A stretch of 64,000 nt of DNA, taken from positions 31,000,365 to 31,064,364 of the forward strand of contig OY987304.1 of the NCBI GenBank assembly GCA_963920635.1. The letters run 5' to 3'. A model generated the notes under the pieces. The model saw only the letters and a program-made list of their open reading frames with translations, searched no databases and was not told where the DNA came from. The stretch is from Pseudeuparius sepicola. Lineage: Eukaryota > Arthropoda > Insecta > Coleoptera > Anthribidae. Shown here piece by piece: positions 9,785 to 47,200 of this stretch. Each line of letters opens with the position of its first letter. The first letter of the stretch is position 1. The position numbers and the translations under genes are program-made.

Positions 9785-9869
9785 TACGTGCATATTCATT
9801 TTATGTAGTGACGGCGTCCAGAAATGAGCTTGCACAAATAAGAAAATAAATTGTAAAGAAAATAAATCG

Positions 9870-9901
<32 letters not shown>

Positions 9902-9904
<3 letters not shown>

Positions 9905-11841: not shown

Positions 11842-11888
<47 letters not shown>

Positions 11889-13047: not shown

Positions 13048-13131
13048 AGATAGTGACAGATTTTTGGACGTGATTTTACTCAGTATGCCCTGCAAAGGGC
13101 ATTATGTGGCACATATTCTCACAATAATAAG

Positions 13132-13818
13132 GTATGAATCAGAGAGTCATCCTGGGTTCTTCATATGAAAAACTGAGTTTTCAATTATTCGAAAAATATG
13201 CGTTTTGATATGATTTTAGTCAGGCTGCCATTTGTTTTATAATGAAGTTCAAAATAGAAAATCCTCGGAAAACCATAGGCATAGGCACCGTTAGCGTGGG
13301 TCCAAAGGGCTATTATTGCCACGCCACGTGACCTTGTATTTTAATAATTAATTTTTCCACGTTTCTGAACAGGCTGCCAATGAGAAGTATGCCAGTTCTT
13401 GTTATAAAACTGCTGAAAAAAGGATGGCATACCGATTGCCCATGTCCAAGTACTGTTTAAATTGAATGTTATTTAATAATTTAAACGATTTATTCGATGT
13501 AAAGTGTACTTGGACATGCGTAAACGGTATGCCATCTTTTCTTCAGCAGTTTCATAACAAGAACTTGCTTACTTCTCATTGGCAGCCTGTTCAAAAACGT
13601 GGAAAAATGAATTATTAAAATAAAAGTTCACGTGGCAATAATAGCCCTTTGGGCCCACGCTAACGGTATGCCTATAGTTTTCCGAGGATTTTCTATTTTG
13701 AACTTCATTTTAAAAGACATGGCAGCCTGACTAAAATCACAACAAAACGCATATTTTTCGAATAATTGAAAACTCAGTTTTTCATATGAAGAACCCAGGA
13801 TGACTCTCTGATTCATAC
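13132..13818. mobile_element. Foldback MITE inside the terminal repeat of the THAP element
   Basis: The sequence GTATGAATCAGAGAGTCATC is mirrored by GATGACTCTCTGATTCATAC at 13818. Inverted homology covers most of the 687 bp (for example CCGAGGATTTTCTATTTTGA in both arms). The other terminal repeat of the host element (57385-57494) lacks it, giving an empty-site comparison: GGTATGAA|CACAGAATAAC. Confidence 0.85.
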
Positions 13819-13839
13819 CACAGAATAACTAAATAGAAT

Positions 13840-21366: not shown

Positions 21367-21815
21367 TTCCGGTGGTGATGGTTTTCATTATTATAAGTAT
21401 ACAGATATTCACTTGTGGTTAACTAAATAAATGTAATTCACTAAATACCAACTATTTTTTTATTTATAATGCAATCGGATCCAAAACCGTCCTATATACT
21501 TCCAGCGAGGGCAGCATTTTCCAGTCGCTTTATATTTGCATTTAGATATTTTAGAAACCTTAGAAAAACGGTATATTTAACATACAAAAAATAGTTTTAT
21601 TTCTTCAAGCGTTAAACACAAAAATCTTGAAACAAGATTTTACGATGTTGTGGCCATAAATCGGACTCTTAAAACAAAATGCTATTATAAATTAAACAAA
21701 ATTACAATTTATTTAAATTGCATATACATTTTAAAAGAAAACAAGTACATACACATAAAAGATAAAACAAAACATTTTTCACTAAAACCACAATCTAAAT
21801 ATTTTTTTATAAGTA
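21367..21815. other. No feature beyond a polyadenylation region
   Basis: AT-rich DNA with AATAAA at 21425. The 89-aa open frame that starts at 21650 runs into the foldback and is not protein-like. Confidence 0.4.
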
Positions 21816-22483
21816 CAGGGTGTCCCATTTTGGGTGTTTTTGGGAGATTTTCTCAAAAATCTCGGTTATTATTAAAGCTAGAGGGTTGCGGTTTTCACGT
21901 CACTCTACTACTTTTTTGAGAGGAATTTGGTGGACCAATCAGATTTTAGATAAGTTTTATAGTTTCCGCGCATTGGCGCAGGACTGAAATTTTCGATTTT
22001 TTGGAAACCTCTCTCCTGACTACAACTTATATGTATATATCGACAAATTTAATCAACTATTTTTATAGATTTTTTGGCGTAGAATCGAATGGAATAATTA
22101 GTTTTTTGGTAGCGTTAATAGTTTTTGAGATATGAACCAAAGTTATTTTTTTAAAATGGAAACCATAGTTCATATCTCAAAAACTATTAACGCTACCAAA
22201 AATAATTATTCCATTCGATTCTACGCCAAAAAATCTATAAAAATAGTTGATTAAATTTGTCGATATATATAAGTTGTAGCCAGGAGAGAAGTTTACAAAA
22301 AATCGAAAATTTCAGTCCTGCGCCAATGCGCGGAAACTATAAAACTTATCTAAAATCTGATTGATCGACCAAATTCCTCTCAAAAAAGTAGTACAGTGAC
22401 GTGAAAACCGCAACCCTCTAGCTTTAATAATAACAAAGATTTTTGAGAAAAACACCCAAAAACACCTAAAATGGGACACCCTG
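21816..22483. mobile_element. TA-flanked foldback, CAGGGTGTCCCA family, copy 2
   Basis: TA|CAGGGTGTCCCATTTTGGGT at the left is mirrored by AAAATGGGACACCCTG|TA at the right. It is a full-length relative of 9040-9784, with the same segments in the same order (GCTAGAGGGTTGCGGTTTTC, CGCGCATTGGCGCAGGACTG). It is inserted just downstream of the CACTA transposase. Confidence 0.9.
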
Positions 22484-22600
22484 TACATACATATAAAACA
22501 TAAAACAACAATATTTTTTACTAAAATAGTAATCTAAATTTTTTTATAGGTAGGACAACGTCAATTTTATTGAAGATTCTGTATTGTATACATAAAAGTG

Positions 22601-23533
22601 TCAATCACATAATGTGTGAATAATCGGCATGGATATCCAAGAAGAATCACGTGGAAGCAGTAAACATTTACTCTTTATAATATTAATTGGCCAAGCAAAA
22701 TATTGTTTTGATATATTTTCTACATAATATATATCCAAATTCTCTGAACTAAATGGATAAGTATATATAGGTCGTTTTTTCATAAACTTTTTTCCTATTA
22801 CGTAAGTATCCTGTTTGTGCAAAATAATGTTGTGTATTTCTACAACCGACCCATCTCCAAGCAAACAGTAAGAGTTAGCTCTTTGGCAGAAATAAGTACA
22901 TAAAATAAAATCTTTCATTTGGAGCTTCTTGAACTGATAACAGTTAGTGTAAAATAAAGTGGGACCCGATTCATGTTCCAATAAGTGTATTACATTCGGC
23001 TTATCGGCCACAAAATCCTTCTTAATTAGTCATGCATCAGCTTCTTTTAATCTACGCTCAATTTGTTGCAATGGTCTTTTCGACGATTTTATTAGAGATT
23101 TCAGGTGACCTAAGTAATTTTCAAAAGGGAATGCAGAAAACTCATCCAATGGTCCAAAATTTTTCACATCATCAACCAAATGGCACAAAATATGAACATT
23201 GTATATCAGAAATTCTTTTCCATATAATTTTTCGCAATGAGTTATAAAAATTTGCAAGATTTTATTAGGGAAGTCATAACCATGTCTAGTGATATGTTGC
23301 TTCGATATAAGAATTGAAATTGCACAATGAAACAACAAAAAATGTTCGTAGACAGCTAAATCGATTAAACCTTTAAGTACTACTGGGCCAACGTAGAGCA
23401 AAAATATCCGAAATTCAGTAGCCTTCCACTTTGAAAGTTCATCTAATGATCGCGGTTTCCTATTGAATTCAGAAGGAATGAACATTTTTAGTGATATTAA
23501 TCGCTCAGATATCCTTTTTAATATATGGCTTGA
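22601..23533 (-). pseudogene. CACTA-like transposase, C-terminal part
   Basis: Minus-strand continuation of the transposase beginning at 38969. Its first codons after the inserted element read HILKRISERLISLKMFIPSE. Then follow ELSKWKATEFRIFLLYVGPV, YEHFLLFHCAISILIS, YNVHILCHLVDDVKNFGPLD and FSAFPFENYLGHLKSLIK, the hallmarks of the DUF4218 part of tnp2-type transposases. One in-frame TGA at 23030-23032 interrupts the frame, which then stays open for 136 codons to the stop at 22601. An AATAAA on this strand lies just downstream (about 22570). The gene was split by the 14.2-kb element at GCTTGA and is otherwise only lightly damaged. Confidence 0.88.
23528..23533. repeat. Target duplication GCTTGA, left copy
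   Basis: This is identical to 37758-37763. Removing the 14.2-kb element and one copy restores the transposase frame exactly (..R-L-S-S-H-I-L-K..). Confidence 0.95.
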
Positions 23534-23559
23534 AGTAGTAATACAAAGAGAGTACGGGC

Positions 23560-23745
23560 TCACTTTGACCTCAGTTGACCCCTTGATCCTGAGAGTCCCC
23601 TACGGCCCGAGGTCACGGGAGCAAAGTGGCTACGTCATGCCCGAGGTCACGTGACGTCACCGGATGACCCCAGTTGACCCCTAGATCCTGATAGGTTAAC
23701 CTTTGACCTTTGGGCCACGTGTGACCCCCAGTTGACCCCCCCCCA
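23560..23745. repeat. GC-rich tip with repeated GTTGACC motifs
   Basis: CAGTTGACCCC-like words recur at about 23572, 23673 and 23728. They are interleaved with CGAGGTCACG (two copies), GTGACGTCAC and GATCCTGA (two copies). The pattern suggests an imperfect duplication of about 100 bp and an array of protein-binding sites at the element tip, possibly for a replication or transposition protein. The same array stands at 37545-37730 in the other arm. Confidence 0.6.
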
Positions 23746-23797
23746 CTCCAACGACGGGGCAACCCCCACTCCAACGGCTTGGTGGGGTGAGGTCTAT

Positions 23798-23871
23798 ATA
23801 TTCGTGCGCAAGAGCAGTTTTCCCGTTATATACACTTACAATTTCCCACAGTCTGATTTGCCGAGTTCAAA
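23798..23871 (+). promoter_or_regulatory. TATA-type promoter of the 102-aa gene
   Basis: GTCTATATATTCG at about 23791-23803 is followed some 25-30 bases later by a plausible start region (AGCAGTTTTCCCG). A leader of about 50 bases then ends in AAA-ATG. The mirrored copy precedes the gene in the right arm. Confidence 0.6.
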
Positions 23872-24180
23872 ATGCAGTCGTTCCTGAATCACCTGAACAA
23901 GAATTTGATCGTCAAGAAATTCGAAAGCGTTCAAAATATGGACGTGGATGAAAATTTTCAAATCACGAGCGTGGACAAAGTGAACACGCAATACGGAGAG
24001 AAGGTCTACGTAGAGTTCGAAGAATTTAAGACGGTGCTGCCGCAACGATACACGGCCGAGTTTACGCCCCAACGGATCGAAGAAATTAATAGGGATATCG
24101 GTAACGGAAGGAGGTATTACATGAAGAGTCTTGGACCCGTCGGCCGATCTACAAATATCGAATTTATTGTAGAACCATGA
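23872..24180 (+). CDS. Small protein of 102 aa in the terminal repeat, intact copy
   Basis: It starts MQSFLNHLNKNLIVKKFESV and is rich in alternating charged and hydrophobic residues that predict beta strands. Key stretches are VNTQYGEKVYVEFEEFKTVL and RYYMKSLGPVGRSTNIEFIV. The pattern of a conserved YG-K-V-VE strand followed by a second strand ending IEFIVEP suggests an OB-like, possibly single-strand DNA-binding fold; this is inference, as I cannot name the family. A TATA box precedes it and AATAAA follows at 24305. Coding composition is less AT-rich than its surroundings. A frameshifted copy is in the other arm (37109-37416), so the element had two gene copies by structure. Confidence 0.8.
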   Translation: MQSFLNHLNKNLIVKKFESVQNMDVDENFQITSVDKVNTQYGEKVYVEFEEFKTVLPQRYTAEFTPQRIEEINRDIGNGRRYYMKSLGPVGRSTNIEFIVEP

Positions 24181-24309
24181 CGAAGCTGGAGTACAGAAGA
24201 AAACTGCAACAATATTTGAAGAATTTAGAAGCATTGAAATATGAACTTATGTTATATGAAATTAAAATGAAGATAAAACATATTGACTTACACAATTAAT
24301 TTTTAATAA

Positions 24310-25190
24310 ACGTTTAAAAATCTTTTGTTGTGTTTTTTTATAAGAATCTTTGTGTTGAAGGGAAAACACCTGAAGCATCATATTATAATAAAACTCTCAC
24401 TCTAAGCAATAATATCACTCTATTCCACTGTTATGTGTATACAGGGTGATTCTTAACTTATACACATAAATTTGGAAAATTGTAGGTTATGTCAAGTAAT
24501 GGCTAATAATGAAAAAAAAAGTCTAATAAAATTGTTATCGATAAGGTCTGCGTTTGTGATCTTATGAACCATAGTTTTTAATTTATTTGTGCAAATAAAC
24601 CCCGAATTGTTCAAGTACACAAAAATATAACTCAGCTGTTGCGTCGCATCGGGTTACTCGCTGCGAACGCGTGACCGCATAGTAAATATATAGTAAGAGA
24701 AAACACGTGGAATAGTTCACGACAGACGCCTGCTTTGTTTGGTCGAGCACTCAGCGATTTTGCTGAAACCGCATATAGAACAATAGGCTACAAATTTCAC
24801 CCAATTATCTTCTAAATAAAAAAATCTGAAAAAATTGCAGATAGAATAATAAACGGAAAATTTGGGAAAATCAGCATGTAACGCAAACGATTTAGGCCGG
24901 AATCTTCAACTAGACACGTGGAAATCCGAGGTAGACTCCTTGGTATCAGGAAATGTGATACATTATGGTAAATAAGAAACCACGTGGAACCGTATATGAT
25001 GCGATGTACAACGTAAACAATTAGTACGTCAGGGGCTCGGATTTTCTGCTGATGCAGGTATATCGTGATTTCCAAATATATCTTCTGATCGGCTGATCGG
25101 AAAAAATCCTCATATAGCGCAATCGATTTTGGGGCCACCCCTTGGGGGGGGGTGGACTTAGTCTACCCCGGGGTGGGTGGGGGGTGGCGG
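24310..25190. other. Arm sequence without a recognised gene
   Basis: AT-rich DNA mirrored at 36108-36980. Open frames of 108 aa on the minus strand here and on the plus strand in the other arm are the same sequence; they show no domain and end in low complexity. A run of G at 25144-25152 precedes the hairpin. Confidence 0.45.
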
Positions 25191-25257
25191 GTGGGCAACT
25201 ACGTGCCAGGAGGAACGGAGGCCGAAGGCCTCCGTCCGACTGGCATGTAGTTGCCCG
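25191..25257. repeat. GC-rich perfect-type hairpin in the left arm
   Basis: GGGCAACTACGTGCCAG and GGAGGCC form a stem with GGCCTCCGTCC and CTGGCATGTAGTTGCCC, about 30 bp long with a 3-base GAA loop and few mismatches. The element is otherwise AT-rich, so the hairpin stands out. Its mirror is at 36034-36100. It could be a replication or recombination structure, like hairpins in the ends of some DNA viruses; this is inference. Confidence 0.8.
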
Positions 25258-26329
25258 AACAAAATCCACCCTTCCCCCTTGCACGCGTTTCGCGCATGCG
25301 CAGTTCCGCACTTTTGATACCTATGAAAATTCGAAAAATTTTGAAAATTTTTTATTCAAAAAATGTAATTTTAAAAAGGTCCTGATCCTATAATCCCGAT
25401 AACATTTTGGGAAATTTTCATTTTTTGACGGTGAAATGTACAAGACAAGACGAATGTTTTATATACAAGTGCAGATAGAATTTTTTCGAGTGACTGATAA
25501 AAACAGTTATTATAATAGTTAGTCGGAAGGCCCCAGATAACATAGGAAATTTTGTTTGAACAAAAATCTGTAAAAAAAATCCAAGACGTGAAAATGTAGG
25601 TAGAATTTTCGAATAAGTTTTGTATACCGGTAAAAATATATGTAAAGGTAAAAATAACGTCAGTTTCACTTGGAAAAAAATGATGAAAAAATTTCAGTAA
25701 AAAAAATACGATGTAGAGGTTGTACCAAAAAAAATTGGAAATAATTATTTATTCCAGTAAAATATACACAAGACCGAAAAAGGTAATTGCGCGGCTGTCC
25801 CATTTTATACACCCTAGCTGTTTCAGTTCATCTCGTTTGGAAAAATTTTAGGGGTTATTACTTTTTTAAATACCGGTTTCCTCAACCTTATTTGAAAGTA
25901 AATATTTTTTAGTTCCCCACAGAAGGAAATAATGACGATATTTTATACCGGTGGATTCAAAAAATATATAAGGTTAGGAAAAAACCTTGGTAGGCAAACG
26001 CGGCTCTGCTGACCAGACAAAAAAAAACCTTAGTCGACAAATAATGGCCTATAAGAAGGGTGCGTGATTCCACGTATCAGTTCGAGTGCTCCAAGATGCA
26101 AGTAAGTATATACCAGCTGTCCCATTTTTAAACAGCTAGATATTTGGAAACCTTTCGTAAAAAAATTCCCAAGGATTACATGAGCAAAAGAAAGAAAAAA
26201 ATGTAAATATACCAGCTGTCCCATTTATAAACCGCTTGATATCTTGGAAACGAAAACTTATATAAAGGAAGTAAAAGCTATATCTTAATAGGCGGAGGAC
26301 CGACTGTCATTCAGACAGGTGAAAATTTT

Positions 26330-26637
26330 TTGTGATTTTTTGTAGAAGTTTTTTGCCAAAATTTTTTTTTGTCAATTTTTTTTTCGTCAAAATTTTTTTT
26401 TGTCAAATTTTTTTTTTGACAATTTTTTTTGCCAAAATTTTTGTTTGCCAAATTTTTTTTTGCCAAATTTTTTTTTTGTCAAAATTTTTTTTGTCAAAAT
26501 TTTTTTTGTCAAAATTTTTTTTTGTAAAATTTTTTTTGACATTTTTTTTTGCCAAATTTTTTTTTTGTCGAATTTTTTTTTGCCAATTTTTTTTTTGCCA
26601 AATTCTTTTTCGACAAAATTTTTTTTGATACAAATAT
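26330..26637. repeat. T-rich tandem array (TTTTTTTTGTCAAAAT-type, about 16 bp)
   Basis: About 18 imperfect copies of T(7-9)-GCCAAA or T(7-9)-GTCAAAA. The open frames reading FFxxFF or KKxxKK are artefacts of this array. The mirrored array at 34612-34960 is longer, which explains part of the length difference between the arms. Confidence 0.9.
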
Positions 26638-26969
26638 AATTGCTAACGTTTAATTTGTTTACCCCATTTACGAAAATGATAACAAAATTGGATCAGACAA
26701 GATGTTTTTTCGAAGTATAGTTTTTAAACACAGGGTGCCACCACCGGTTTTACGATATAGGTTTCAAAATGCGACGCAAGTACATAAAAAAAATACCCTA
26801 GAGATAAGAAAACAAAATACAACTCACCGAAAGATTCTTGATGATGTATAAAAAGAAATCAGGTTACATCTAATGCCCCAGACAGTAAAATAAACATCCC
26901 CGAGCTATCAGATATAACCAAACATCATTTTTCTAACGGCACAGTCATTTTCACGGGAAAAACAACCAT

Positions 26970-27166
26970 GCCTCGCTACGTGGTGCGTCGCATACTCGCC
27001 GTCGCGTGGTGTATGGGCGCCAGCTTTTGGCCAATTTCAAGGGAATCGTTTTTCATATTTTCGACGGATTTTCGTCTTTTTTGCAGACGTTACACTGCTA
27101 AATTGATCCGTTTTGCTGGCAAAAAATATTTCTATCGCCATGACTGAGTCACGACGCTTGACCTTA
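26970..27166. repeat. Inner inverted repeat, left copy
   Basis: Directly inside the left arm, this 197-bp CpG-rich segment (from GCCTCGCTACGTGGTGCGTC to GTCACGACGCTTG) is mirrored at 32098-32291 at about 98% identity. The two copies are 5 kb apart and bracket the GNAT gene, DEAD-box fragment and spliced gene. Confidence 0.9.
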
Positions 27167-27249
27167 TGCAATTCGCTGCTGGCGCAACTTCCAAACGCTT
27201 CCCCAAATATCTTAACATCTCAAATGGATCAAGGTTTCGGCTAGTTTAA

Positions 27250-27367
27250 AATTTATAAAAGTGGTGGGGGTAACGTCTTAAAAAGTGTATGGAAAAATAT
27301 AAAAGTGGTGTTGGTAATGTCTTAAAAGTGTGTGACCGATGATTTTTCATTCAAACGTCTGTGCAAC
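27250..27367 (+). promoter_or_regulatory. Duplicated TATA-containing leader before the GNAT-like gene
   Basis: A block of about 52 bp containing TATAAAAGTGGTG and GGTAA(C/T)GTCTTAAAA is repeated (27256 and 27308). TATAAAAG is a strong TATA box, and the second copy lies about 65 bases before the ATG at 27368. Confidence 0.55.
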
Positions 27368-27856
27368 ATGGAGATCAGATTCTTTTTTGATCGACAAGCA
27401 GTAAACAAAATAAGACAAGAAGTCGTGAGAGATGGTATTGCAAGAAGTATGTTCGATCAGTGGTGCCTAGATAAAAAAATATCGTGCTATATATTATACG
27501 TTGATGCTAAACCGGTTTCATTTGTCCTAATGTCAAAAATTGATTTCGACCCTTTAAACAAACACTCCAACCCGAAAAATCTCAATTTTGTTTTTACCCA
27601 TGAAGAATATCGTCGAAGAGGATATGCGTCAAGACTAGTGAATCATATTAAGAAAATTAATCAATTTACGTCTTTCTGTTCTAATACCAATTCAGAAAAA
27701 CTTTTTGAAAACTGTTCATGTATTAATTACGGAGAAATAAATTATAACACCATGTATAGATCCCCTAATAAAATGTTTGTGTCAATTTTTCTTCTTTTTT
27801 TTTTCACAAAGCACCTCAAAATCGGGTCCATTATTGCCGAAATCCTCCAACATTGA
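27368..27856 (+). CDS. GNAT-like N-acetyltransferase
   Basis: A 162-aa protein from the ATG at 27368; the frame also runs 12 codons upstream without an ATG. The core has strands and helices of the GNAT fold: CYILYVDAKPVSFVLMSKID, LNFVFTHEEYRRRGYASRLV and then NHIKK. RRRGYAS fits the acetyl-CoA-binding R/Q-x-x-G-x-A signature of motif A. Such enzymes move acetyl groups to amines; the substrate cannot be told. The last 25 residues (after NKMFVSIF) look unlike a GNAT end, so the C-terminus may be altered. It has no visible intron, and a TATA box precedes it. It lies in the unique centre of the 14.2-kb element. Confidence 0.65.
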   Translation: MEIRFFFDRQAVNKIRQEVVRDGIARSMFDQWCLDKKISCYILYVDAKPVSFVLMSKIDFDPLNKHSNPKNLNFVFTHEEYRRRGYASRLVNHIKKINQFTSFCSNTNSEKLFENCSCINYGEINYNTMYRSPNKMFVSIFLLFFFTKHLKIGSIIAEILQH

Positions 27857-28610
27857 TGATTCAGCAAGAAATTAGACTACACCCTGATGTACGCCTCTGA
27901 AATCCGGGTGTCATCAAACATCTGTGCTCCCACGATCCAGGTACGAGCGCGGCTGAGATATTTTGCATCGGAACCCTAGACGCAGCGGCGCTCCGTGGCG
28001 CCCGGCGTTTTGCTGTGCAAGTCTCGATAAAAAATTTGGCCGACGAGCGTGGCCGAGAAATTGAAGAACCACGTCGCATTTAACTGACAATCATCATGCG
28101 TTCGTTTCCTACTTCGAGGTAGAATACAGAACGCAATAAAAAAAAATCGAAAATGTTTCACACCTTCAACAAAAATTTTTAATCGCAAATTAGACGTACA
28201 GTTTCATATGGATATTAGTTATAAATAGGTTGAATTGTTCTTTTATATATATTTTTAAATTGTAACAAAACTATATGCATTCATTTTCCCACCACCTTTG
28301 AGGTAGAATGCAGGGCGCAGGAGGTCTAATCCATGTTTGATCAAACATATTAGAGAGATACAAAGAATAGTGTAATTTAAAAATATGGGATATTACCTTA
28401 TAAGCTTATATTATGAAAGTATGGAATCACAAACAACCGTTTCGAGCTGCAGGGAGAGTCGCAAACTTGATGATACAAAATTCATTTTTTCATACAAATC
28501 CTAAACAATATAGACTAGAAAAGATTAGAGTAAAAACTAGATAATGCAAGTTGGGGCCTTCCTTCTTTCGCCACTGGGGTTGAAACCCAATCTTGAGAGA
28601 AACAAAACCA
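27857..28610. other. No gene recognised; two copies of a short motif
   Basis: A GC-rich patch (27900-28080) precedes two occurrences of TTTGAGGTAGAATGCAGGGCGC or a close variant (about 28112 and 28299). Nothing protein-like is seen. Confidence 0.4.
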
Positions 28611-28618
28611 TATGAAGG

Positions 28619-28823
28619 GTACACGGGAAAAACAGGCCAAGTCATTTTTTGTTGAAATTGGGATTACAGTGCCATCTTGTGGTAAATTGTGTGCTCTTTC
28701 AAACCAACGTAATAGTCAGGGGAAAAACAGGCTAGGTCACAATATACGTATTACTTTAAAATACCCATACACGGGAAGAATAGGCTAAGTCAGCGCGGAA
28801 CAGGGGAACAACAAGCTAAGTCA
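28619..28823. repeat. Iterated ACGGGAAAAACAGGCTAAGTCA motifs
   Basis: Four variants of (C/G)GGGAAAAACAGGCTA(A/G)GTCA stand at about 28621, 28717, 28769 and 28801. The inner ends of both terminal repeats carry the related CACGGGAAAAACAACCA (ending 26968; starting 34277 in complement). Repeated spaced motifs of this kind are usual for initiator or transposase binding sites. Confidence 0.65.
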
Positions 28824-29099
28824 TAATAAAAATCGCATAAAATCGTCAGCTGTTTTGTTTAAGGTTAGCAGTTAATTATCGTGATCGTGTTTGCGCTGGC
28901 GTCTTTGTACAATCATTACATCACAATAAAATCATTCTTCTGAAAAGTGAAGTTTGCGATAATTTGTCTAACAATAATCAAGACCAAAACGAGCTATTTT
29001 TCATTATATTTAAACAAAATTGCCAAATCCCACTGGTTTATAAACTTCACTATGAAATGTGCTATTTATTCACGATTAGTAACATATTGTGGCGTCGGG

Positions 29100-29285
29100 T
29101 AGATGAATTGAGATTAAAATGGTGGAAGAAGATAACAGAAAGAAGTTGGGTTAACAAAAGCTGACTCCTATACAAAAGTATGCAATACCTATCATAATGA
29201 CAAGTCAAGACTTGGTGGGGTGTATTCAAAACAGGCTCTGGAAAAACGGCGGCCTTTTTACTACCCCATCATCCACTAGATCGTT
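29100..29285 (+). pseudogene. DEAD-box RNA helicase fragment (Vasa-like), broken
   Basis: In one frame from 29158 it reads KLTPIQKYAIPIIMTSQDLV followed by GCIQ, the Q motif and the lead-in to motif I of Vasa/Belle-type DEAD-box helicases. One extra A then shifts the frame; in the shifted frame the sequence reads TGSGKTAAFLLP, the ATP-binding motif I. Upstream (29100-29157) weak similarity continues through a stop. No later helicase motif (DEAD, SAT) is seen. It is a short captured or decayed piece of a host gene, and not functional as a helicase. Confidence 0.8.
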
Positions 29286-30480
29286 TCTGACCAAACACCG
29301 CTCTTAAAAACTGAGAAATATCTGAAACGTTGTTTTTCACAGATATATGTGATACAAACACCGTACAATATATTGGAGAGGAAACAAAATTAATATTATA
29401 AAATGTACTATTTAGGCATTGGAAAAGAAACAGAACCAAGCCGTAGATAAATATTTAATTATAGCAGCGTAGGTAATAGAAGATTTTAACGATGATTACC
29501 ACAGTGACTTCCTTCCAAATTTCGATAAGTGGAACCGTTTATCAATGACTCCACCGTGACTTTCTACCCCTGCGATTTTCGCTACCTAAAGCAAGCACTC
29601 TAACAATTTTTCTAGAGAACACAGCCTAAAAGTCTGCCTAATATCCTTACAGAGGTATCTTTTATTTAAAAATATTATACTATTTTAGAAGAGTGCCTTT
29701 TCTGTAGCTTACACGTTAAAATGTTGTTAATGAAACTTGTTCAAGATGAAGAATTAGGTAGGTGTAAAAAAAAATTTCAAAACCTTAGGCCCATTTTGAC
29801 CCATTTTGACCTTCTAGCCGAGACGCCGCGATCAACCTCATTCGTACCCCAAAATGTAAATTTTCAACATACACCCCAAAAGTTCAGCTTTTACCTTGGA
29901 AATATTTTTCGACTAAAAGAAAACACCGATACGAAATTTGAGTGCGCCCGGCCTTGGCGTTCTTGTCCTTTCTGGAATTGGTTTTGTGAGCGATGGGAGA
30001 TACCTCTGTTGTTCGATTTTTAAGCGGAAAGTAGGTTGAACTTTTTTTTTTGGGAGATATGTTTTTGCGTCTACATTTTTAATTAACTGTGCAACGATAT
30101 GATTGGACAACCCATGCGCGATTTGTTTCTTTAAACATTATCACATTCAATTTCGCAAAGACTCTGCGATGTATTAACAATCTAATTCCCCCTAGTCCAT
30201 CAGCCCAGTCCGGCCCTAAAGAACGTGTATAACGCCATACAGTCTAGCTAATTTTTTTTGGATTACATTGCATTATATCGTTCATCCCCGTGGCCTCTTG
30301 TTTACCACATATTAAATTTAATGACCACGCATAACGCCACACAGTCTCGCTCAGATCAATAAACAAGTTTTTTAAAAATTCTAGAGTGGGCAAATCGTTT
30401 TTCTCCTACTATATTTTTTGACTGACATCGATTTTTTTCCCTTTAAAGAGGTTTGTTGAATGGCCATTAGCCAGTTCACA
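29286..30480. other. Centre of the 14.2-kb element, no clear gene
   Basis: The 100-aa open frame at 29721-30023 is not protein-like in composition. A GCATAACGCCACACAGTCT-type motif occurs twice (about 30226 and 30331). CTTATAAG at about 30498 may be the TATA box of the next gene. Confidence 0.4.
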
Positions 30481-30557
30481 GCCTCCTCTCTTATAAGTTT
30501 CTTGATTCACAATAGTAGTTCCAGTGGTGTGTTTTTTGTGTATTTTGGATACTTACA

Positions 30558-31300
30558 ATGCAGCACCCTAAGAAGTTGTCTCTCTCGACAAAGAAACCTA
30601 CTATCCTTAGCAATATGCTAATAATGCCTGTAAGTATAAATCTTGGTTTTCTGGTAATCTTCAACAATTTTTTTCATACAAAATTATTTTTTAAACTTTA
30701 TTTTTGAAAAATACTTTTTTTCTAAATTAAACTTATTATTTTTTTTCTTTTCAGCCAACCATCGACTCTGCACAGTCATACAACATGCCCGATTTGAATA
30801 GTGCGTCCTTCGTGTCGCCCTCCCAAGTGCCTTGTTACGACGAGATAATGGCATTCTGTCCGAATTCCATTATTTCACCGGTTCATCGGCAAGAGGACGT
30901 CGAGCAGTGTGGTGTGGAAAACACGAATAACCCACAATTGAAAGGAAATGGTGGTAAAGACATGCGTCAGTTGGGCATGGACAGCGAGGACTCCTTTAGT
31001 GACGTGCACATTAGTGTTAGTCAGCAGATGGACAGCGAGGATGAATTCGAGGAGCTGACTAGTCCTGGGAGTACTTCACTCGGTTCCTATATATTACAGG
31101 TCTCAAAAGGGCTGAAACAAAAGGACGCCGAAAATCTAAAATCCTTGAGAGAGGAGCAACATCGACTGGCGACTATTAGGAGAGAGAAAGAACGACTGAG
31201 AAAAAGGGAGCAGGTATCTATAGCCAAAATTGAGAAAATGGAGAGGGATAAACGGCTGTCTGCTGGTATTTTAAAAAGATTTAATGTGGTAAAAAAGTAG
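30558..31300 (+). CDS. Two-exon gene, 205-aa acidic/coiled-coil protein
   Basis: Exon 1 (30558-30629) encodes MQHPKKLSLSTKKPTILSNM and four more residues, ending at donor CCT|GTAAGT. The intron has a long pyrimidine tract and acceptor TTTTCAG. Exon 2 (30755-31300) continues in phase 0. The middle is acidic and serine-rich (SEDSFSDVHISVSQQMDSED). From about residue 130 a basic, charged helix follows (LREEQHRLATIRREKERLRK), likely a coiled coil. TATAAG lies upstream (about 30495) and ATTAAA and AATAAA downstream (31310, 31444). I do not recognise the family. The clean frame and splice sites suggest a real gene, possibly a DNA-binding or structural factor of the element. Confidence 0.75.
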
Positions 31301-31449
31301 TTTTTTCTCACATTAAATATTTTTAAAAAATTTTTGAGTCTTTATTTTTCAACGTTGTTTATAGATACCTATCCTTCTTTTAGTTTTAAATTTAATACGT
31401 ATTCTTAGCTTTTAAGTATATTTTCTTTTATATTTTTATACACAATAAA

Positions 31450-32097
31450 TATGTTTTATGTATATTTTTGGTTTTTTTCTATCCTCCCTTATAAGTGCAA
31501 AAACATGTTGAAACTAAAATGTAATAATAATATAATCCTAGAGACAAGTATTTCCTGATTTTGTTCTCCTGAGAAACATGTTACAAACTGAAAATATGTT
31601 AAAGTGCACCATAAAAAGATAAAGATAAAATGTGTAAGTATATATTTTTATTAAATAAACCAAAATTCCATTTCTGAATTTCTTACAACAGTACCGATTA
31701 AAATAATAAGTCGCTGTTCGAGTCCTATACACAAAGAGTGAATTGCCCATTTTCTTTAAGACTGTCTCGTTCTGTTGTGTTTGTATAAGTAGGTATTGTT
31801 CTCTCAACTTTTTTTCATTCATAAACAGCTCAACTTATATGAAATTTCCACTTTTTCTCTGCATCCAGCATATAATACAAATTTTCCAACCCACATTAAC
31901 TTTCTAAAACTGCATAAAATTCAATGAGGTTATTCATGAAAACAGTCGATTCTTATTACGGCATTTTTATCCAGTCACCAGTCACAGTTCGATGTATGAA
32001 TTTTATTTACAATTCATTGCATGAAGAAAGCATGCATATTATGTTACACCTTTTCCCGCGAATGTCTCTACCCACACACATTGTTTATCGCATAAGG
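31450..32097. other. No gene recognised
   Basis: AT-rich DNA between the spliced gene and the inner inverted repeat. The open frames on both strands show no protein features. Confidence 0.4.
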
Positions 32098-32291
32098 CCA
32101 AGCGTCGTGACTCAGTCATGGCGATAGAAATATTTTTTGCCAGCAAAACGGATCAATTTAGCAGTGTAACGTCTGCAAAAAGGACGAAAATCCGTCGAAA
32201 ATATGAAAAACGATTCCCTTGAAATTGGCCAAAAGCTGGCGCCCATACACCACGCGACGGCGAGTATGCGACGCACCACGTAGCGAGGCAT
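32098..32291. repeat. Inner inverted repeat, right copy
   Basis: Reverse complement of 26970-27166. It is followed to 32465 by a further CpG-rich stretch that the left copy lacks, so the homology stops within GC-rich DNA. Confidence 0.9.
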
Positions 32292-32660
32292 CTCCGGGCA
32301 AGTTGACGGCGGCGCGGCGGCCAGATTTCAACAAACGAAGTGGCGCGCAATGCGTCGAAAGGCCGAGATGCTTCCATCTCGAGCGGCGATTTGCATGTGA
32401 CGAAACACCGGCGGCTCTCCCACGTGGGCGTATTGAAGGCATCTCCGTTGGAAATGCCTGATTAGAATCGCAATAGGTACCTTTGTTTACTTTTTACCAG
32501 CAAAACGGGTCAATCGGTGTCATCGCTATGTTGTCTGCTATATTTTTTATTGTAAATTAGGCCATTTTTTTCTTGACCTGAATATTTCTCTGTTTTCGAT
32601 ACGTATTATAGGCTTACTATTCACGTAAGTAAAGTCAACAGTGCGTTTTGTATTTTAGTT

Positions 32661-33020
32661 ATTCATTTTTATCCGTCTAAAATATCAAGGAATACCCCCA
32701 AAAGCTAGCAAAATTGGCAAACAGTCGATAAAAATTCCGTTGAATAACTTATTACTACTACCTATGGTGCCTTTTTTATTAATCAGAAGTGTATTATATG
32801 AGTGAAAGTATTGTTTTGGTGAAATTTTTATTTTTAATTTTTATTATTCATTTTTATCAGTCTAAAATATCAAGGAATACCCCCAAAAGCTAGCAAAATG
32901 GGCAAACAGTCGATAAAAATTCCGTTGAATATCTTATTATTACTACCTATGGTGCCTTTTTTATTAATCAGAAGTGTATCATATGAGTGAAAGTATTGTT
33001 TTGGTGAAATTTTTATTAAA
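32661..33020. repeat. Tandem duplication, 185-bp unit
   Basis: ATTCATTTTTATCCGTCTAA at 32661 recurs at 32846 and the following 170 bases match almost perfectly. No coding frame. Confidence 0.9.
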
Positions 33021-33489
33021 TCGGTTTAAAATGAGCGATTTCTATGTTTTGAGGTTGTAACTCCTTGTAGGTAATATGCAAACATGATTCAAAAGGAATC
33101 CAACTGACCATTATTAAACTACAACTTTTTGTCTAAAAAATTTTTTAAAGAGTTTAGCTTCTAAGATTATAAGCTGTTACAATTAACTGTTGATAAACTA
33201 AACATATTTTAATCGCATTTACTAAACAATTTAAGCCAATATTTTTGGATCCTCTAACTTACGACGCAATAATAAGGCTTCACATGATATCTAGAAAATT
33301 GCCACTCGCAATATTTTTGATTCTAGATAATCGAGAAAATTGTCATTATTAAACCTAATTATTAAATTGAGTTGAAAGTCAACGCACAAAGATTTTTGTA
33401 TGATATTTACTCTCAGGGTCGTTGTCTCAGAATTCTATAAGAGATTCTTAAGATTTTTTTCCTATTATCTCAATTAGTAACTTATTGAA

Positions 33490-33735
33490 ACTCAATTTAC
33501 ACAAAACCAATTTTCAGAGGACAAAAATCCCTTGAAAATATGATTTTTTAAATTTTATAACGTTCAGTATTTTTTATTTTGGTTATATAGTTACCACCTA
33601 GCTTGACCCAGAGAAACTGAATTTTACACAAGAACAATTTTCAGAAGATAAAAATCCGTTGAAAATATGATTTTTTAAATTTTATAACGTTCAGTATTTT
33701 TTATTTTGGTTATGTAGTAGCTTGACCCAGATGGA
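33490..33735. repeat. Tandem duplication, 127-bp unit
   Basis: CAATTTTCAGAGGACAAAAA at 33508 recurs as CAATTTTCAGAAGATAAAAA at 33635, followed by an identical AAATTTTATAACGTTCAGTA block. The rest of 33021-34276 is AT-rich with no gene seen. Confidence 0.85.
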
Positions 33736-36033
33736 ATTTTTCTTTTCATCACATTCTGTTCTAACGGGAAGCGTTTATGATGTTGTCTCGGTCTATTGAA
33801 CAACTATTCTAAAATAACCCAACCTGTATAAAACATAAAATGGGACAGCCACATCACTACTTTTTTTGCCTTGTATATTTCCAAACTGGCTGTTAGATGT
33901 GTTTCTCACCTTAAAAAATTAAAGCCAATATTTTTTTTTGGACCCTCAAACTTGCAACACAATTAGGTTTCACATCTCTGGCATATTTCTCATTTATTTT
34001 ATATATACGTAGGTATAAGTTTCATTGTTTAATAAAACCAACTCGGCACTTTTCACGTCCTATGCGTCGCACTTGCTTCAGTAGATTCTCGGTCGTGGCC
34101 ACAGATAAAGACTCTATCGAGGCGTTGTAATAAATATATGAAAAGTCTGAGTTTCGTGTTTGTTTTTCTTTGGAAAGATGGAAGTGTATCAGTACCTACT
34201 TCAGTATAATAGATACGCGTAGTTCAGTGAAATTTTGGATTACGGCAGTACCTATCTATGGAATTTGAACGGTTACTGGTTGTTTTTCCCGTGAAAATGA
34301 CTGTGCCGTTAGAAAAATGATGTTTGGTTATATCTGATAGCTCGGGGATGTTTATTTTACTGTCTGGGGCATTAGATGTAACCTGATTTCTTTTTATACA
34401 TCATCAAGAATCTTTCGGTGAGTTGTATTTTGTTTTCTTATCTCTAGGGTATTTTTTTTATGTACTTGCGTCGCATTTTGAAACCTATATCGTAAAACCG
34501 GTGGTGGCACCCTGTGTTTAAAAACTATACTTCGAAAAAACATCTTGTCTGATCCAATTTTGTTATCATTTTCGTAAATGGGGTAAACAAATTAAACGTT
34601 AGCAATTATATTTGTATCAAAAAAAATTTTGTCGAAAAAGAATTTGGCAAAAAAAAAAATTGGCAAAAAAAAATTCGACAAAAAAAAATTTGGCAAAAAA
34701 AATGTCAAAAAATTTTACAAAAAAAAATTTTGACAAAAAAAATTTTGACAAAAAAAATTTTGACAAAAAAAAAATTGGCAAAAAAAAATTTTGACAAAAA
34801 AAATTTTGACAAAAAAAAAATTTGGCAAAAAAAAATTTGGCAAACAAAAATTTTGGCAAAAAAAATTGTCAAAAAAAAATTTGACAAAAAAAAATTTTGA
34901 CGAAAAAAAAATTGACAAAAAAAAATTTTGGCAAAAAACTTCTACAAAAAATCACAAAAAATTTTCACCTGTCTGAATGACAGTCGGTCCTCCGCCTATT
35001 AAGATATAGCTTTTACTTCCTTTATATAAGTTTTCGTTTCCAAGATATCAAGCGGTTTATAAATGGGACAGCTGGTATATTTACATTTTTTTCTTTCTTT
35101 TGCTCATGTAATCCTTGGGAATTTTTTTACGAAAGGTTTCCAAATATCTAGCTGTTTAAAAATGGGACAGCTGGTATATACTTACTTGCATCTTGGAGCA
35201 CTCGAACTGATACGTGGAATCACGCACCCTTCTTATAGGCCATTATTTGTCGACTAAGGTTTTTTTTGTCTGGTCAGCAGAGCCGCGTTTGCCTACCAAG
35301 GTTTTTTCCTAACCTTATATATTTTTTGAATCCACCGGTATAAAATATCGTCATTATTTCCTTCTGTGGGGAACTAAAAAATATTTACTTTCAAATAAGG
35401 TTGAGGAAACCGGTATTTAAAAAAGTAATAACCCCTAAAATTTTTCCAAACGAGATGAACTGAAACAGCTAGGGTGTATAAAATGGGACAGCCGCGCAAT
35501 TACCTTTTTCGGTCTTGTGTATATTTTACTGGAATAAATAATTATTTCCAATTTTTTTTGGTACAACCTCTACATCGTATTTTTTTTACTGAAATTTTTT
35601 CATCATTTTTTTCCAAGTGAAACTGACGTTATTTTTACCTTTACATATATTTTTACCGGTATACAAAACTTATTCGAAAATTCTACCTACATTTTCACGT
35701 CTTGGATTTTTTTACAGATTTTGTTCAAACAAAATTTCCTATGTTATCTGGGGCCTTCCGACTAACTATTATAATAACTGTTTTTATCAGTCACTCGAAA
35801 AAATTATATCTGCACTTGTATATAAAACATTCGTCTGAGTCTTGTCTTGTACATTTCACCGTCAAAAAATGAAAATTTCCCAAAATGTTATCGGGATTAT
35901 AGGATCAGGACCTTTTTAAAATTACATTTTTTGAATAAAAAATTTTCAAAATTTTTCGAATTTTCATAGGTATCAAAAGTGCGGAACTGCGCATGCGCGA
36001 AACGCGTGCAAGGGGGAAGGGTGGATTTTGTTC

Positions 36034-36100
36034 GGGCAACTACATGCCAGTCGGACGGAGGCCTTCGGCCTCCGTTCCTCCTGGCACGTAGTTGCCCACC
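36034..36100. repeat. GC-rich hairpin in the right arm
   Basis: Mirror copy of 25191-25257, with the same stem and GAA/TTC loop. Confidence 0.8.
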
Positions 36101-37108
36101 CGCCACCCCCCACCCACCCCGGGGTAGACTAAGTCCACCCCCCCCAAGGGGTGGCCCCAAAATCGATTGCGCTATATGAGGATTTTTTCCGATCAGCCGA
36201 TCAGAAGATATATTTGGAAATCACGATACACCTGCATCAGCAGAAAATCCGAGCCCCTGACGTACTAATTGTTTACGTTGTACATCGCATCATATACGGT
36301 TCCACGTGGTTTCTTATTTACCATAATGTATCACATTTCCTGATACCAAGGAGTCTACCTCGGATTTCCACGTGTCTAGTTGAAGATTCCGGCCTAAATC
36401 GTTTGCGTTACATGCTGATTTTCCCAAATTTTCCGTTTATTATTCTATCTGCAATTTTTTCAGATTTTTTTATTTAGAAGATAATTGGGTGAAATTTGTA
36501 GCCTATTGTTCTATATGCGGTTTCAGCAAAATCGCTGAGTGCTCGACCAAACAAAGCAGGCGTCTGTCGTGAACTATTCCACGTGTTTTCTCTTACTATA
36601 TATTTACTATGCGGTCACGCGTTCGCAGCGAGTAACCCGATGCGACGCAACAGCTGAGTTATAATTTTGTGTACTTGAACAATTCGGGGTTTATTTGCAC
36701 AAATAAATTAAAAATTATGGTTCATAAGATCACAAACGCAGACCTTATCGATAACAATTTTATTAGACTTTTTTTTTCATTATTAGCCATTACTTGACAT
36801 AACCTACAATTTTCCAAATTTATGTGTATAAGTTAAGAATCACCCTGTATACACATAACAGTGGAATAGAGTGATATTATTGCTTAGAGTGAGAGTTTTA
36901 TTATAATATGATGCTTCAGGTGTTTTCCCTTCAACACAAAGATTCTTATAAAAAAACACAACAAAAGATTTTTAAACGTTTATTAAAAATTAATTGTGTA
37001 AGTCAATATGTTTTATCTTCATTTTAATTTCATATAACATAAGTTCATATTTCAATGCTTCTAAATTCTTCAAATATTGTTGCAGTTTTCTTCTGTACTC
37101 CAGCTTCG

Positions 37109-37416
37109 TCATGGTTCTACAATAAATTCGATATTTGTAGATCGGCCGACGGGTCCAAGACTCTTCATGTAATACCTCCTTCCGTTACCGATATCCCTAT
37201 TAATTTCTTCGATCCGTTGGGGCGTAAACTCGGCCGTGTATCGTTGGGCAGCAGCGTCTTAAATTCTTCGAACTCTACGTAGACCTTCTCTCCGTATTGC
37301 GTGTTCACTTTGTCCACGCTCGTGATTTGAAAATTTTCATCCACGTCCATATTTTGAACGCTTTCGAATTTCTTGACGATCAAATTCTTGTTCAGGTGAT
37401 TCAGGAACGACTGCAT
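37109..37416 (-). pseudogene. 102-aa protein gene, right-arm copy, frameshifted
   Basis: Mirror of the gene at 23872-24180. It starts with the same MQSFLNHLNKNLIVKKFESV but lacks one G near 37253 (CTGCCCAACG for CTGCCGCAACG), so the frame breaks after about 55 residues, at the VLPQRY position. Promoter and polyadenylation signals are kept. Only one of the two copies can therefore make the full protein. Confidence 0.85.
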
Positions 37417-37757
37417 TTTGAACTCGGCAAATCAGACTGTGGGAAATTGTAAGTGTATATAACGGGAAAACTGCTCTTGCGCACGAATATATAGACCTCA
37501 CCCCACCAAGCCGTTGGAGTGGGGGTTGCCCCGTCGTTGGAGTGGGGGGGGGGGGTCAACTGGGGGTCACACGTGGCCCAAAGGTCAAAGGTTAACCTAT
37601 CAGGATCTAGGGGTCAACTGGGGTCATCCGGTGACGTCACGTGACCTCGGGCATGACGTAGCCACTTTGCTCCCGTGACCTCGGGCCGTAGGGGACTCTC
37701 AGGATCAAGGGGTCAACTGAGGTCAAAGTGAGCCCGTACTCTCTTTGTATTACTACT

Positions 37758-37763
37758 GCTTGA
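37758..37763. repeat. Target duplication GCTTGA, right copy
   Basis: Identical to 23528-23533. Confidence 0.95.
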
Positions 37764-38969
37764 CAAACGTGTTTTTAAATTTCCACTTATCCAAAAATTC
37801 AGTAATTTTCGACAAACTCCAAGGCAACAAGCGTGCATATAATCAATTGGAATATTTGTTACTAGTCCTATATTTAATTCAAGTAAAGGAGAAATTTCAC
37901 GATGGTGGTCCTCATCTTCTTGAAGCCGAAAAGATTCGTCCGTACGTTTAGGAGCTGATATATCTTTTAAAATAATTCTACCCTTATAATATTCTCCTAC
38001 ATCGCAACACTTATCACAACTGGAATAACCACCGTGAGATTTAATACATTTAATAAATGCCTTCGCAGGGGCATCACATATACTGTGAATAGAAATGAGG
38101 TAAGTTTGATTAGAAAATTCTACACCTTTTTTTCTCAGTAAATTAAATTCTGACACAAAGTCTTTTAAAAATATATCAAGAGGTTTTGGTTTTGAATTGC
38201 CACAAAATATTGCAACGACAAATGGGGAACTATTAGGGATATTTTTTATTAAACACAATATGGGCCATAATTGCATGTTTGTACTATGAAAAACTGGTAT
38301 ACCATCTAAATTAAAACTGAGGAGTATTTTACTAGTTTTTAGTAATAATAAAATATGTGGCGAAACTGTACGTAATACATTTAATATACCATTAGTTAAT
38401 CCTACATAACAATATTCCCCTGTATCTAGTTTGGTAGTAAATGTTCTTCGAGGAGTCTTTAGTAACGTCCTGCTATCCTTAGGTAATTTAGAACTTATTA
38501 TTGGGGCAAGTCTACGTAAAAGATCATTTAATGCAAAATGAGTTATATTGTGCATTACGGCCCACGATCTCAATTCTTCATTTATACTGAAAATTGGTTG
38601 GCTACAAATTCGAAAATTTTCTTGCCTATTTATTACATCGTTTCTATTTGCTAAGTCAATGACTACGTTTTCTTCTACTGTTGTTGAATGATTACTACTA
38701 ACAACGTCCCCATTTAAACATAAAATTTATTCTGCTGCAATGTTTGTTCCATTAATTGAATTGTCGATAGGAAAAAATAATTTGTGACTTGATTTTAAAG
38801 AAGTATTATCCAAATTATAACTGGTACTTGATTTTACAACAGTTTTATCACAATTGTTATTAATTTGTTGCAATGCACTTTGGATACTAGAAGCTATTCT
38901 TCGATAAAATTGACGTTTTCCTACGACTTGTTTTCTAATTCTGTGTGTTATTGGAGGCAAGGGTGGCAT
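37764..38969 (-). pseudogene. CACTA-like transposase, N-terminal part
   Basis: Minus-strand start of the tnp2-type transposase. From MPPLPPITHRIRKQVVGKRQ it stays in one frame to the insertion point at ..FWISGNLKTRLSS. It includes NLDGIPVFHSTNMQLWPILC (a catalytic aspartate region), CIKSHGGYSSCDKCCDVGEY (cysteine cluster) and NIPIDYMHACCLGVCRKLLN, all typical of this family in arthropods. A single TAA at 38727-38729 interrupts the frame. The C-terminal part is at 22601-23533. Together they make about 720 codons with two stops and no frameshift. Its ATG lies inside the last exon of the companion gene, in another frame. Confidence 0.88.
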
Positions 38970-44214: not shown

Positions 44215-47200
44215 CGTCAGGGCCGTAGCTAGAGGAGGCCGAGGAGGGCATGATGAGGCCCTACCTTTTAAAATTGACCCATAATTAATAACATTAAATT
44301 ATTAATTGCCATAATGTTCTCTTATTATTTACAAGTTAATAAAATAACTAAATCCAAATAATCGTTTACACAAGTACTTGTGATATAATTACTGTATCGT
44401 TGTTTATCTACTGATTGCTTACTGGGTTTCGTTTTGTTTTCTAAAGACTAAAGTAATTATTTTTTATTGGTCATTTTTCTAAAGATTGTTGTGCAATTTC
44501 TGCATGGTAGTCCTTTTTGCAGCTTTTACTATACCGGGTCGCCACGGGATGTGGCCCACCCCCAATTTTTCTTTTATTTTTAACGTCTTTAAGATAAAAA
44601 TTTGAAATTTGAGTTGCATGTATATCATGTAAAAACGGTTTTTTACATATTTCCACGTTTTTTCTATTTCCGGTTTTGCCAGAAATTGAGCCAGAAATAT
44701 CATCAACTTTGGTTTTTAAATAACACCCTGTATACCTAAACTTTTACATATTCGGTTTCAGTATAAAATTCTACGTATCCAACAACGTTTCTGTCAAATT
44801 TTGACAGCTGACAATTTTTTTAAAAAAAATTTGCATCCAGGAGCCCATGGACTTTAAATATGCTTAATATATTATGTCCTTCCGTAGCCACAGAAAAATT
44901 TAAATTTTAACAGACAAATTTTTATTTATACCTACCTATTTATTTATTTTTACAAGTCTATTTTACATACCTATGGGGAGCTACTATTTTTTCAACCGAC
45001 TTATCAAGGCAGAGGCTATTTAAATTTGCAATATGTGGCCATATTATTTGTGGGTTAACTTTAGGTACCTAATTTAAATGTAATAAAATAACCTTTGATT
45101 AATAGGAGAAGAAGTTAGGAGCCACACACTCATGATACTCACACTGGTCCTATTTGAAAAAAAAAAATACTTGGAAAAATGTGGCTATAAAATAATAAAA
45201 TTAACAATGACAGCTGTCAAATTTTGACAGAAACGTTGTTGAGTTGAGCACCTATGTAGAATTTTATGCTGAATCCGAGGCTGAATCCGAATAGGGTAAA
45301 AATATAAGATACGAAGTCGGTCAAATGGAGGCAAACTTGCGCCTTTGGGCGCCTAACAATATGCCGTTGAGAAAATTAAAATATTTTCATGGGTTGCTGA
45401 GATATTTAAGAAAAACCGAATTTTTGAAAATTATATTTTATTTTTTTTCTGACGCCATTTGCGATAATATTAAAAAATAAATAATACTTTTTTATTGCAA
45501 CTTTTTCTGGACTACGTCCTGGTATTTTTAGATTTTCGGGGCGACTTTTCGTTTTTGAGATAGAGGGATCATCTTAATTTTTTTAAATACGGACCTGGAT
45601 TTTTTATTCCATATTTCGAAATAAATCGTTGTCCTGAATACAACGATGTATGACACATACATATTTTTTCTCGCTATGGCCGCCAAAATGCACATTTACT
45701 ACGAAAAAAATTAATACGGTCCTGGACTGTGCATTGTTCTCTCTTTTTTCAAAGCTATTCCAATTATAACAAGTAATCATTTTTTTATACCTACTGGATT
45801 AATTAAACTCTATGTTTGTCATATCTTGAAATTCTTTTTTACACTTTAGGTAAAATGTATCTCACTATTGTTAGTAATAATTATTATTGTTGTTATTTAC
45901 CTAAAGTATAAAAAAGAATTTCAAAATATGACAAACATGGAGTATAATTAATCCAGTAGGTATTAAAATAATGATCATCTGTTATAATTGGAATAGCTTT
46001 GAAAAAAAAGGGAGAAAAATGCATAGTCCAGGAATGTATTAGTTCTTTTCTTAGTGAATGTGCATTTTAGTAGCTAAAACGAGAAAAAATATGTATGTGT
46101 CATACATTGTTGTACTCAGGACAACGATTCATTTCGAAATATGCAATAAAAAATCCAGGTCCGTATTTAAAAAAATGAAGATGATCCCTCTATCTCAAAA
46201 ACGAAACGTCGCCCCGAAAATCTAAAAATACTATGACGTAGTCCAGAAAAAGTTGCAGTGAAAAAGTAGGTATAATTTATTTTTCAATGTCATTGCAAAT
46301 GGCGCCAGAAAAAAATAAAATCTAAATTTCAAAAATTCGGTTTTTCTTAAATATCTCAGCAACCCATGAAAATATTTTAACTTTCTCAACGACATATTGT
46401 TAGGCGCCCAAAGGCGCAAGTTTGCCTCCATTTGACCGACTTCGTATCTGTTACGGTTTCCAAGATCCCCATGTTGAGCACCGGAACTGAATCACCCTCT
46501 GTATACAGTGTGGCCATTTTAGTGTGCAACATATGGGAATTTTTTTTATTAATTGCACAACCAAAATTCAAATATTGCCGAAAGTTGGTGCATGTTCGAT
46601 AATGATATTAGGTGCCCTTAGAATTGTTGCAAGTTAAACCGCATACAGGGTAAGTCGAAAAATATAAAAATTACACAAGAGTGAAGTACCCTTATTTCAA
46701 AAAATTCAGGAAAAGGTTATTAAGAAAAGTTGTTTAGAATTAAAAGCTATGCCTAAATACCAAAACATAGCCTCCTAAGAAAAAAAAATTTTCGTCGATG
46801 AATTTCCACAGTTTCTTATTAAACATTTAAAATAAAAAATTTGCACCTTAAATGAGAGTTTTTTAATAGACACATTATCATTACTAATGTTTTGCCTTGT
46901 TCATAAGAATTTTTGCGAAATTTTAAAGTTGTGTTTAATATCGTTGCAACAAACATCAAGTTTGTGATTCCCTAAAAAACTAAAAATCTAAGTTAATTTT
47001 ACAAATATGCTTGAATTTGAACAAAGTTATGAGAAATTAATTTGATTTTGATTAATTTATGAAAGTGTTTAAGGGGAATATTAAAAAATATATTTTTTTG
47101 GAAAATTATTAATGTTTTTCAAAAAAATATTTTTTTTTCTTAGGAGGCCATGTTTTTGTATTTAGGCATAACTTTTAATTCTAAACAACTTTTCTTAATA

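Follow-up and report, generated by a model that had tools for sequence, protein, structure and literature searches.

Mavericks, or Polintons (polintoviruses, adintoviruses), are the closest described counterparts of the element considered here. In one survey (PMC8097293), intact vertebrate Mavericks are 12,723–24,620 bp long, carry terminal inverted repeats (TIRs) of 46–1,447 bp and 6-bp target-site duplications, have no introns and most commonly end in (AGT)2//(ACT)2; a second account (PMC8969392) gives TIRs of hundreds of nucleotides. Our element lies in a stretch of 64,000 nucleotides from the beetle Pseudeuparius sepicola (Anthribidae; GCA_963920635.1, contig OY987304.1, positions 31,000,365 to 31,064,364), the whole of which is called the window and numbered from its first letter. 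The element occupies 14,224 bp (23534–37757) and, measured against those texts, agrees with Mavericks in length (12.7–24.6 kb), in its 6-bp duplication, in having TIRs, although these exceed the stated range, and in its termini, for which the motif of PMC8097293 is (AGT)2//(ACT)2 or (AG)3//(CT)3. It also shares a cassette around a small OB-like gene with a Maverick of the same genome. It differs in that no Maverick core gene was found in it, in that the OB-like gene stands in both arms, and in that its centre has a gene with an inferred intron. We consider it very probable that the element belongs to a non-autonomous, palindromic family of Maverick/Polinton satellites present in high copy number, which would be mobilised in trans.

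The borders are sharply defined. The termini read AGTAGTAATAC...GTATTACTACT, i.e. AGTAGT...ACTACT, and the perfect 6-bp duplication GCTTGA is found at 23528–23533 and 37758–37763. Joining the flanks with a single GCTTGA gives an open frame across the junction. The interrupted host frame, on the minus strand, is tnp2-like in Pfam searches (Transposase_21, E 0.0016, below its cut-off; DUF4218, 1.9e-7), with the part upstream of the insertion at 37764–38573 and the downstream part, with DUF4218, at 23030–23533. An earlier reading of the window from its letters alone (the sequence-only reading) had reported AG..CT ends, a perfect GCTTGA duplication and a resuming host frame, and both the border reading and the joined flanks confirm it. 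Within the window the 25-base terminus occurs at the two borders only, with up to three mismatches allowed. The terminal 20-mer had no match in the viral contigs searched, and an Rfam search at gathering thresholds of positions 22500–38800 returned no match.

The OB-like gene encodes 102 amino acids (aa). Its left copy (23872–24180, plus strand) is open and its right copy (37109–37416, minus strand) is frameshifted in the window element; a 40-aa frame overlaps its stop codon (ATGA) at 24177–24299 (plus), with a right copy at 36990–37112 (minus). A search of the source genome (769 Mb, 16 contigs) with this gene gave 3,080 candidate places; the 150 scored are all free of stops, with identity over 102 aa of 99% or more. 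They fall into 45 inward-facing pairs (less than 45 kb apart), with 60 matches left unpaired. The pairs imply lengths of 7.4–32.9 kb, 25 of the 45 falling at 13.0–14.7 kb. We fetched 11 further copies whole and read ten more pairs at their ends and nine more centres. All 11 fetched elements agree in their first and last 12 bases, and AGTAGT/ACTACT ends are present in 12 of 12 fully read copies and in nine of ten pairs read at their ends, those of the remaining pair not being located. As the sequence-only reading had proposed, other copies were inspected for 6-bp duplications: an exact one flanks nine of the 11 fetched elements and nine of the ten further pairs, which with the window element makes 19 of 22. 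The family is young, mobile and present in many copies.

The absence of polymerase B, integrase, ATPase, protease and capsid genes, also noted from the sequence alone, was upheld by a Pfam scan. Of the window element's stop-free pieces at least 45 aa long, 132 in all, it covered 82; the 50 others were 5 terminal pieces, 6 from tandem arrays and, for the rest, right-arm duplicates. None of the core genes (pPolB, integrase, ATPase, protease, capsid) was found in the 82 pieces, nor did any match a bidnavirus or parvovirus mark (polymerase, NS1-type helicase, parvoviral capsid). A GNAT-type piece was the only one with matches below 1e-3; six other, unrelated families matched single pieces at 0.008–0.046, and none is a Maverick core gene. 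Across the 21 copies read, as far as they were scanned or aligned, no core gene lies outside one nested Maverick, described below. The element is therefore not filed as an autonomous Maverick.

The link to Mavericks comes from the longest copy (C1:112132629–112164591), read as three overlapping stretches that were kept apart (L047–L049), a type A element (the centre type of the window element) whose centre has been interrupted by a Maverick. The nested Maverick runs from L047:999 to L049:1292 (C1, about 112.138–112.158 Mb). By these coordinates it is 19,294 bp long, with a TIR of 107 bp, AGTAGT/ACTACT ends and the duplication CGCATG. Pfam recognises a DJR capsid (2.7e-77), an rve integrase domain (1.8e-14) accompanied by a sub-threshold chromo domain, a PLA2-like domain (1.2e-11), an A32-type ATPase (3.2e-11) and, over 64 residues, polymerase B (PF03175, 5.5e-6); in our reading there are also short protease-like and penton-like frames, neither with a Pfam match. 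Its right end carries, facing inward, a homologue with 53% identity to the OB-like protein (2e-44); the next frame resembles the 40-aa frame by eye, with a DNA match of 44 bases (2e-4). Arm DNA aligns with this OB end at 64% over 289 bp (8e-9), the best value at the other end being 0.027. From this alignment and the homologue located there, it follows that both arms of the window element correspond to the same end of a Maverick. The sequence-only reading had held that the element fits no family; because the homologue sits near the end of a Maverick, the element is better read as a Maverick derivative, one that has in common with a Maverick its cis sequences and a residual gene, the OB-like gene with its following frame.

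Outside this genome the OB-like protein is solitary among the sources consulted. No relative was found in the protein database, viral contigs, genome contigs or phages searched; PHROGs gave no match, and two motif scans returned 15 contigs with no relative among them. Fold matches to Pur-alpha, PC4 and Whirly are too weak for naming a fold. The frame stands out by base periodicity (0.55% of same-length stretches score as high), while its stop-free length (107 aa) was equalled in 44 of 60 random 14.2-kb sequences, and codon usage was uninformative, neither it nor the GNAT frame scoring better than random. The OB genes of the family and of the nested Maverick differ with pN 0.26 and pS 0.87 (saturated), from which the protein appears to have been under constraint since the two genes parted. 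Identity among the copies was not counted as evidence of selection, since they were picked by their OB match. A putative role is single-strand binding, as in B35SSB of phage Bam35, an OB-fold-like single-strand-binding protein which (PMC8276246) is likewise a small product, predicted to be beta-rich, of a protein-primed genome, although no sequence similarity between the two has been found. The gene would then be a small Maverick gene absent from Pfam and a candidate for a single-strand-binding protein.

The arms were delimited by self-comparison and against the copy e16.0. The left arm spans 23534–27172 (plus strand) and the right arm 32087–37757 (minus strand). Segments 23534–26968 and 34277–37757 are 98.1% identical over 3,489 columns, and homology resumes between 26968–27172 and 32087–32291 (205 bp, 98.5%). 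Between the two lies a stretch found only in the right arm (32292–34276, 1,985 bp); the left arm lacks it after 26967. The 3.4-kb terminal repeats of the sequence-only reading are thus present, but the arms extend further inward than had been thought and are unequal. Apart from the unpaired stretch they differ by 14 substitutions and 13 indels. A nested transposon at 26968–32291 was rejected as an explanation, since the arms continue in the 205-bp inverted pair. An insertion into the right arm was set aside as well: a deletion from the left arm is likelier because e16.0, with arms of 5,565 bp (99.8% identical) around a centre of 4,907 bp, carries the 1,985-bp stretch in both. The copy e14.22b has the same one-sided deletion as the window element. 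Each arm also contains a tandem array of 15/31-bp units (26349–26627 and 34618–34938).

The 21 centres read fall into two types. Eleven are window-like (type A: the window element, e13.6, e14.22a, e14.22b, e16.0, L045, L047, L050, L051, L054 and L055). Ten are type B (e7.4, e9.6, e11.4, e13.7, e14.27, e17.3, e18.0, L044, L052 and L053), recognised by arms that diverge from the window sequence at position 32550, with the centre itself compared directly in six of the ten. The mirror image runs through the centre in e11.4 and e14.27, and in L044 and L053 except for a few tens of bases; the unmirrored remainder is 920 bp in e13.7 and more than 2 kb in e17.3 and e18.0, and much of one side has been lost in e7.4 and e9.6. 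Three frames of the type B centre had no Pfam match. One type B centre (L036:6299–8358) contains tandem repeats of a 313-bp unit and, near the mirror point, GCGTTAAC-rich units of 11–31 bp. Two type A copies have near-identical long reverse-transcriptase frames inserted in them (L045:2105–4957, RVT_1 1.7e-30; L051:2–2578).

Arms resemble their own mates. In one segment (12 elements) divergence between mates was 0.23% versus 0.53% when arms were re-paired, in another (9 elements) 0.37% versus 0.59%, and the own-mate value lay below all 20,000 re-pairings in both segments. In addition, e11.4 and e14.22a each have an identical deletion junction in both arms. Such a shared history within a copy would be easier to reconcile with replication through a folded strand than with cut-and-paste movement. 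We infer the helper, the replication route and the origin of the palindrome along the following lines. Each arm would have been built on one Maverick end (terminus, OB-like gene and small overlapping frame), doubled in inverted orientation with loss of the core genes, leaving a centre that in type A is 4.9 kb of other DNA and in type B is largely the mirror-image continuation. A Maverick protein-primed polymerase would copy the element from its AGTAGT termini and a Maverick integrase would insert it with a 6-bp duplication, both acting in trans; both arms would be regenerated from one template, probably via a displaced strand that folds back. Complete Mavericks would thus be the probable source of the enzymes that move the family.

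Two kinds of system offer parallels. Adenovirus symmetric recombinants carry one terminus twice, as an inverted pair, and some have foreign DNA between the copies; our literature searches for them found nothing. A deletion derivative of the kalilo plasmid is known to us from a reference title in PMC11071308. These palindromic defective genomes of protein-primed replicons likewise duplicate one terminus in inverted form, so far as that title indicates for kalilo, but they are sporadic, whereas here the palindrome is an integrated, amplified family. Large retrotransposon derivatives (LARDs; PMC6431247) keep their terminal repeats, have the coding core replaced by other DNA and are moved in trans, as proposed here; they differ in being long terminal repeat (LTR) retroelements with direct repeats and an RNA intermediate. 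No description of a palindromic non-autonomous Maverick family was found in the accessible text of the literature searched, a scope that excluded subscription journals and repeat databases.

Several observations weigh against a Maverick satellite copied by folding back. The nested Maverick and the family agree in the first six bases of their ends only (AGTAGTTAAG vs AGTAGTAATA), and outside the OB cassette standard blastn gave no DNA match between them; on both grounds the nested Maverick is not the direct parent. A helper with the family termini (AGTAGTAATACAAAGAGAG) was not found, a genome-wide search for capsid or polymerase not having been made. Family arms of 3.6–5.6 kb are at least 2.5 times the longest TIR of an intact vertebrate Maverick (1,447 bp) in the survey text cited above. 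Only 7 of 24 arms in one segment, and 7 of 18 in the other, have their mate as the strictly nearest arm; in e14.22a, e17.3 and e18.0 the mates are, in one segment each, more distant than many other arms. The two arms of the window element were sampled together with copies chosen by OB match. The one-sided deletion of the window element and e14.22b indicates that arms are not always equalised. Finally, e7.4 (C1:142841672–142849074) and e14.22a (C2:64367383–64381608) are the only fully read copies without a 6-bp duplication, possibly as a result of recombination between copies.

The centre of the window element (27173–32086) bears on the first of the alternatives. It contains, all on the plus strand, a GNAT-type acetyltransferase frame (27368–27856; PF00583, 3e-7), the last part of which looks like run-off into poly-T, a broken DED1/DDX3-like DEAD-box helicase fragment (29158–29292, E 2.2e-5) and an inferred two-exon coiled-coil gene (30558–30629 and 30755–31300), the GT-AG sites of which are kept in other copies. 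Every item of the cargo listed by the sequence-only reading, the OB-like frame included, is therefore present. TATAAA and TCATTC lie 70 bp and 21 bp upstream of the GNAT frame. Searches found no relative of the GNAT protein or of exon 2; PHROGs gave weak acetyltransferase matches for the former. The lengths of the GNAT piece (176 aa) and the spliced exon (189 aa) were unmatched in the 60 random sequences, and by base periodicity 3.8% of same-length stretches score as high as exon 2 and 30% as high as the GNAT frame, which is not singled out. Exon 2 is frameshifted in two of the four other type A copies that have it (e13.6 and e14.22b) and the full-length GNAT frame is missing from e13.6. The cargo is less well kept than the OB gene.

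A first alternative is that the element is autonomous and encodes a transposase or replicase of a new, unrecognised class, its Maverick-like ends and OB gene being borrowed or convergent. This would account for a high copy number without any recognised enzyme and for the GNAT frame and the unclassified spliced gene that several type A copies share. We regard it as unlikely: type B copies are about as numerous (10 of 21) with no Pfam-recognised gene in their centres, the candidate genes are broken in the copies just named, and the OB cassette is a Maverick one. Foldback elements (FB, Galileo) have long inverted arms with tandem repeats, 7–9 bp duplications and a P-type transposase. A classical cut-and-paste transposon of this type with acquired Maverick-like ends would suit the very long inverted arms, internal tandem repeats and variable centres seen here. 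It is nevertheless very unlikely, given the family's 6-bp duplications and AGTAGT ends, the absence of any transposase from the 82 pieces scanned, and the symmetric deletions and mate similarity that point to copying. It is likewise very unlikely that the copies are a chance set of Mavericks, each internally deleted on its own. The sequence-only reading had raised derivation of all copies from a Polinton by internal deletion, and in part this stands, as the arms do match a Maverick end; however, two centre types and near-identical arms are common to the copies, and the lack of core genes outside the nested Maverick in the 21 copies read, as far as they were scanned or aligned, also speaks for one amplified family over separate deletions. 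An assembly-made palindrome, also foreseen there and suggested by arms 98% identical, is extremely unlikely, because the arms are unequal and differ at many sites, the centre is unique and 19 of 22 copies have distinct duplications of their own.

The window has other repeats. A Tc1/mariner-like element lies at 9873–11870; its inverted repeats are about 400 bp long (99%), and its transposase frame of 368 aa resembles Sleeping Beauty (8.4e-8). A tandem array of about 11 copies of a 203-bp unit (89% matches) lies at 52167–54465. Near-perfect short palindromes (88–92% self-complementary) at 9037–9787, 13131–13819, 21802–22497, 45307–46449 and 50684–51855 show no relation to the element in the comparison made. 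A 1.1-kb inverted pair (1–1115 and 59601–60730, 91% identity) flanks most of the window.

A more specific form of the Maverick satellite reading can be put forward tentatively. The family may be a satellite virus with two genome forms, palindromic (type B) and filler-bearing (type A), mostly near Maverick length, which would depend on a Maverick helper for replication, packaging and integration; the doubled OB-like protein would either aid the replication of the helper or interfere with it. If so, an animal genome would harbour a Maverick parasite of the defective-interfering or virophage-like kind. If the broader reading of a satellite family mobilised in trans is right, Mavericks have amplifying parasites of their own, comparable to the LARDs of LTR retrotransposons and the satellites of viruses, and the family makes testable both the action of Maverick polymerase and integrase in trans and the regeneration of ends in protein-primed linear genomes.

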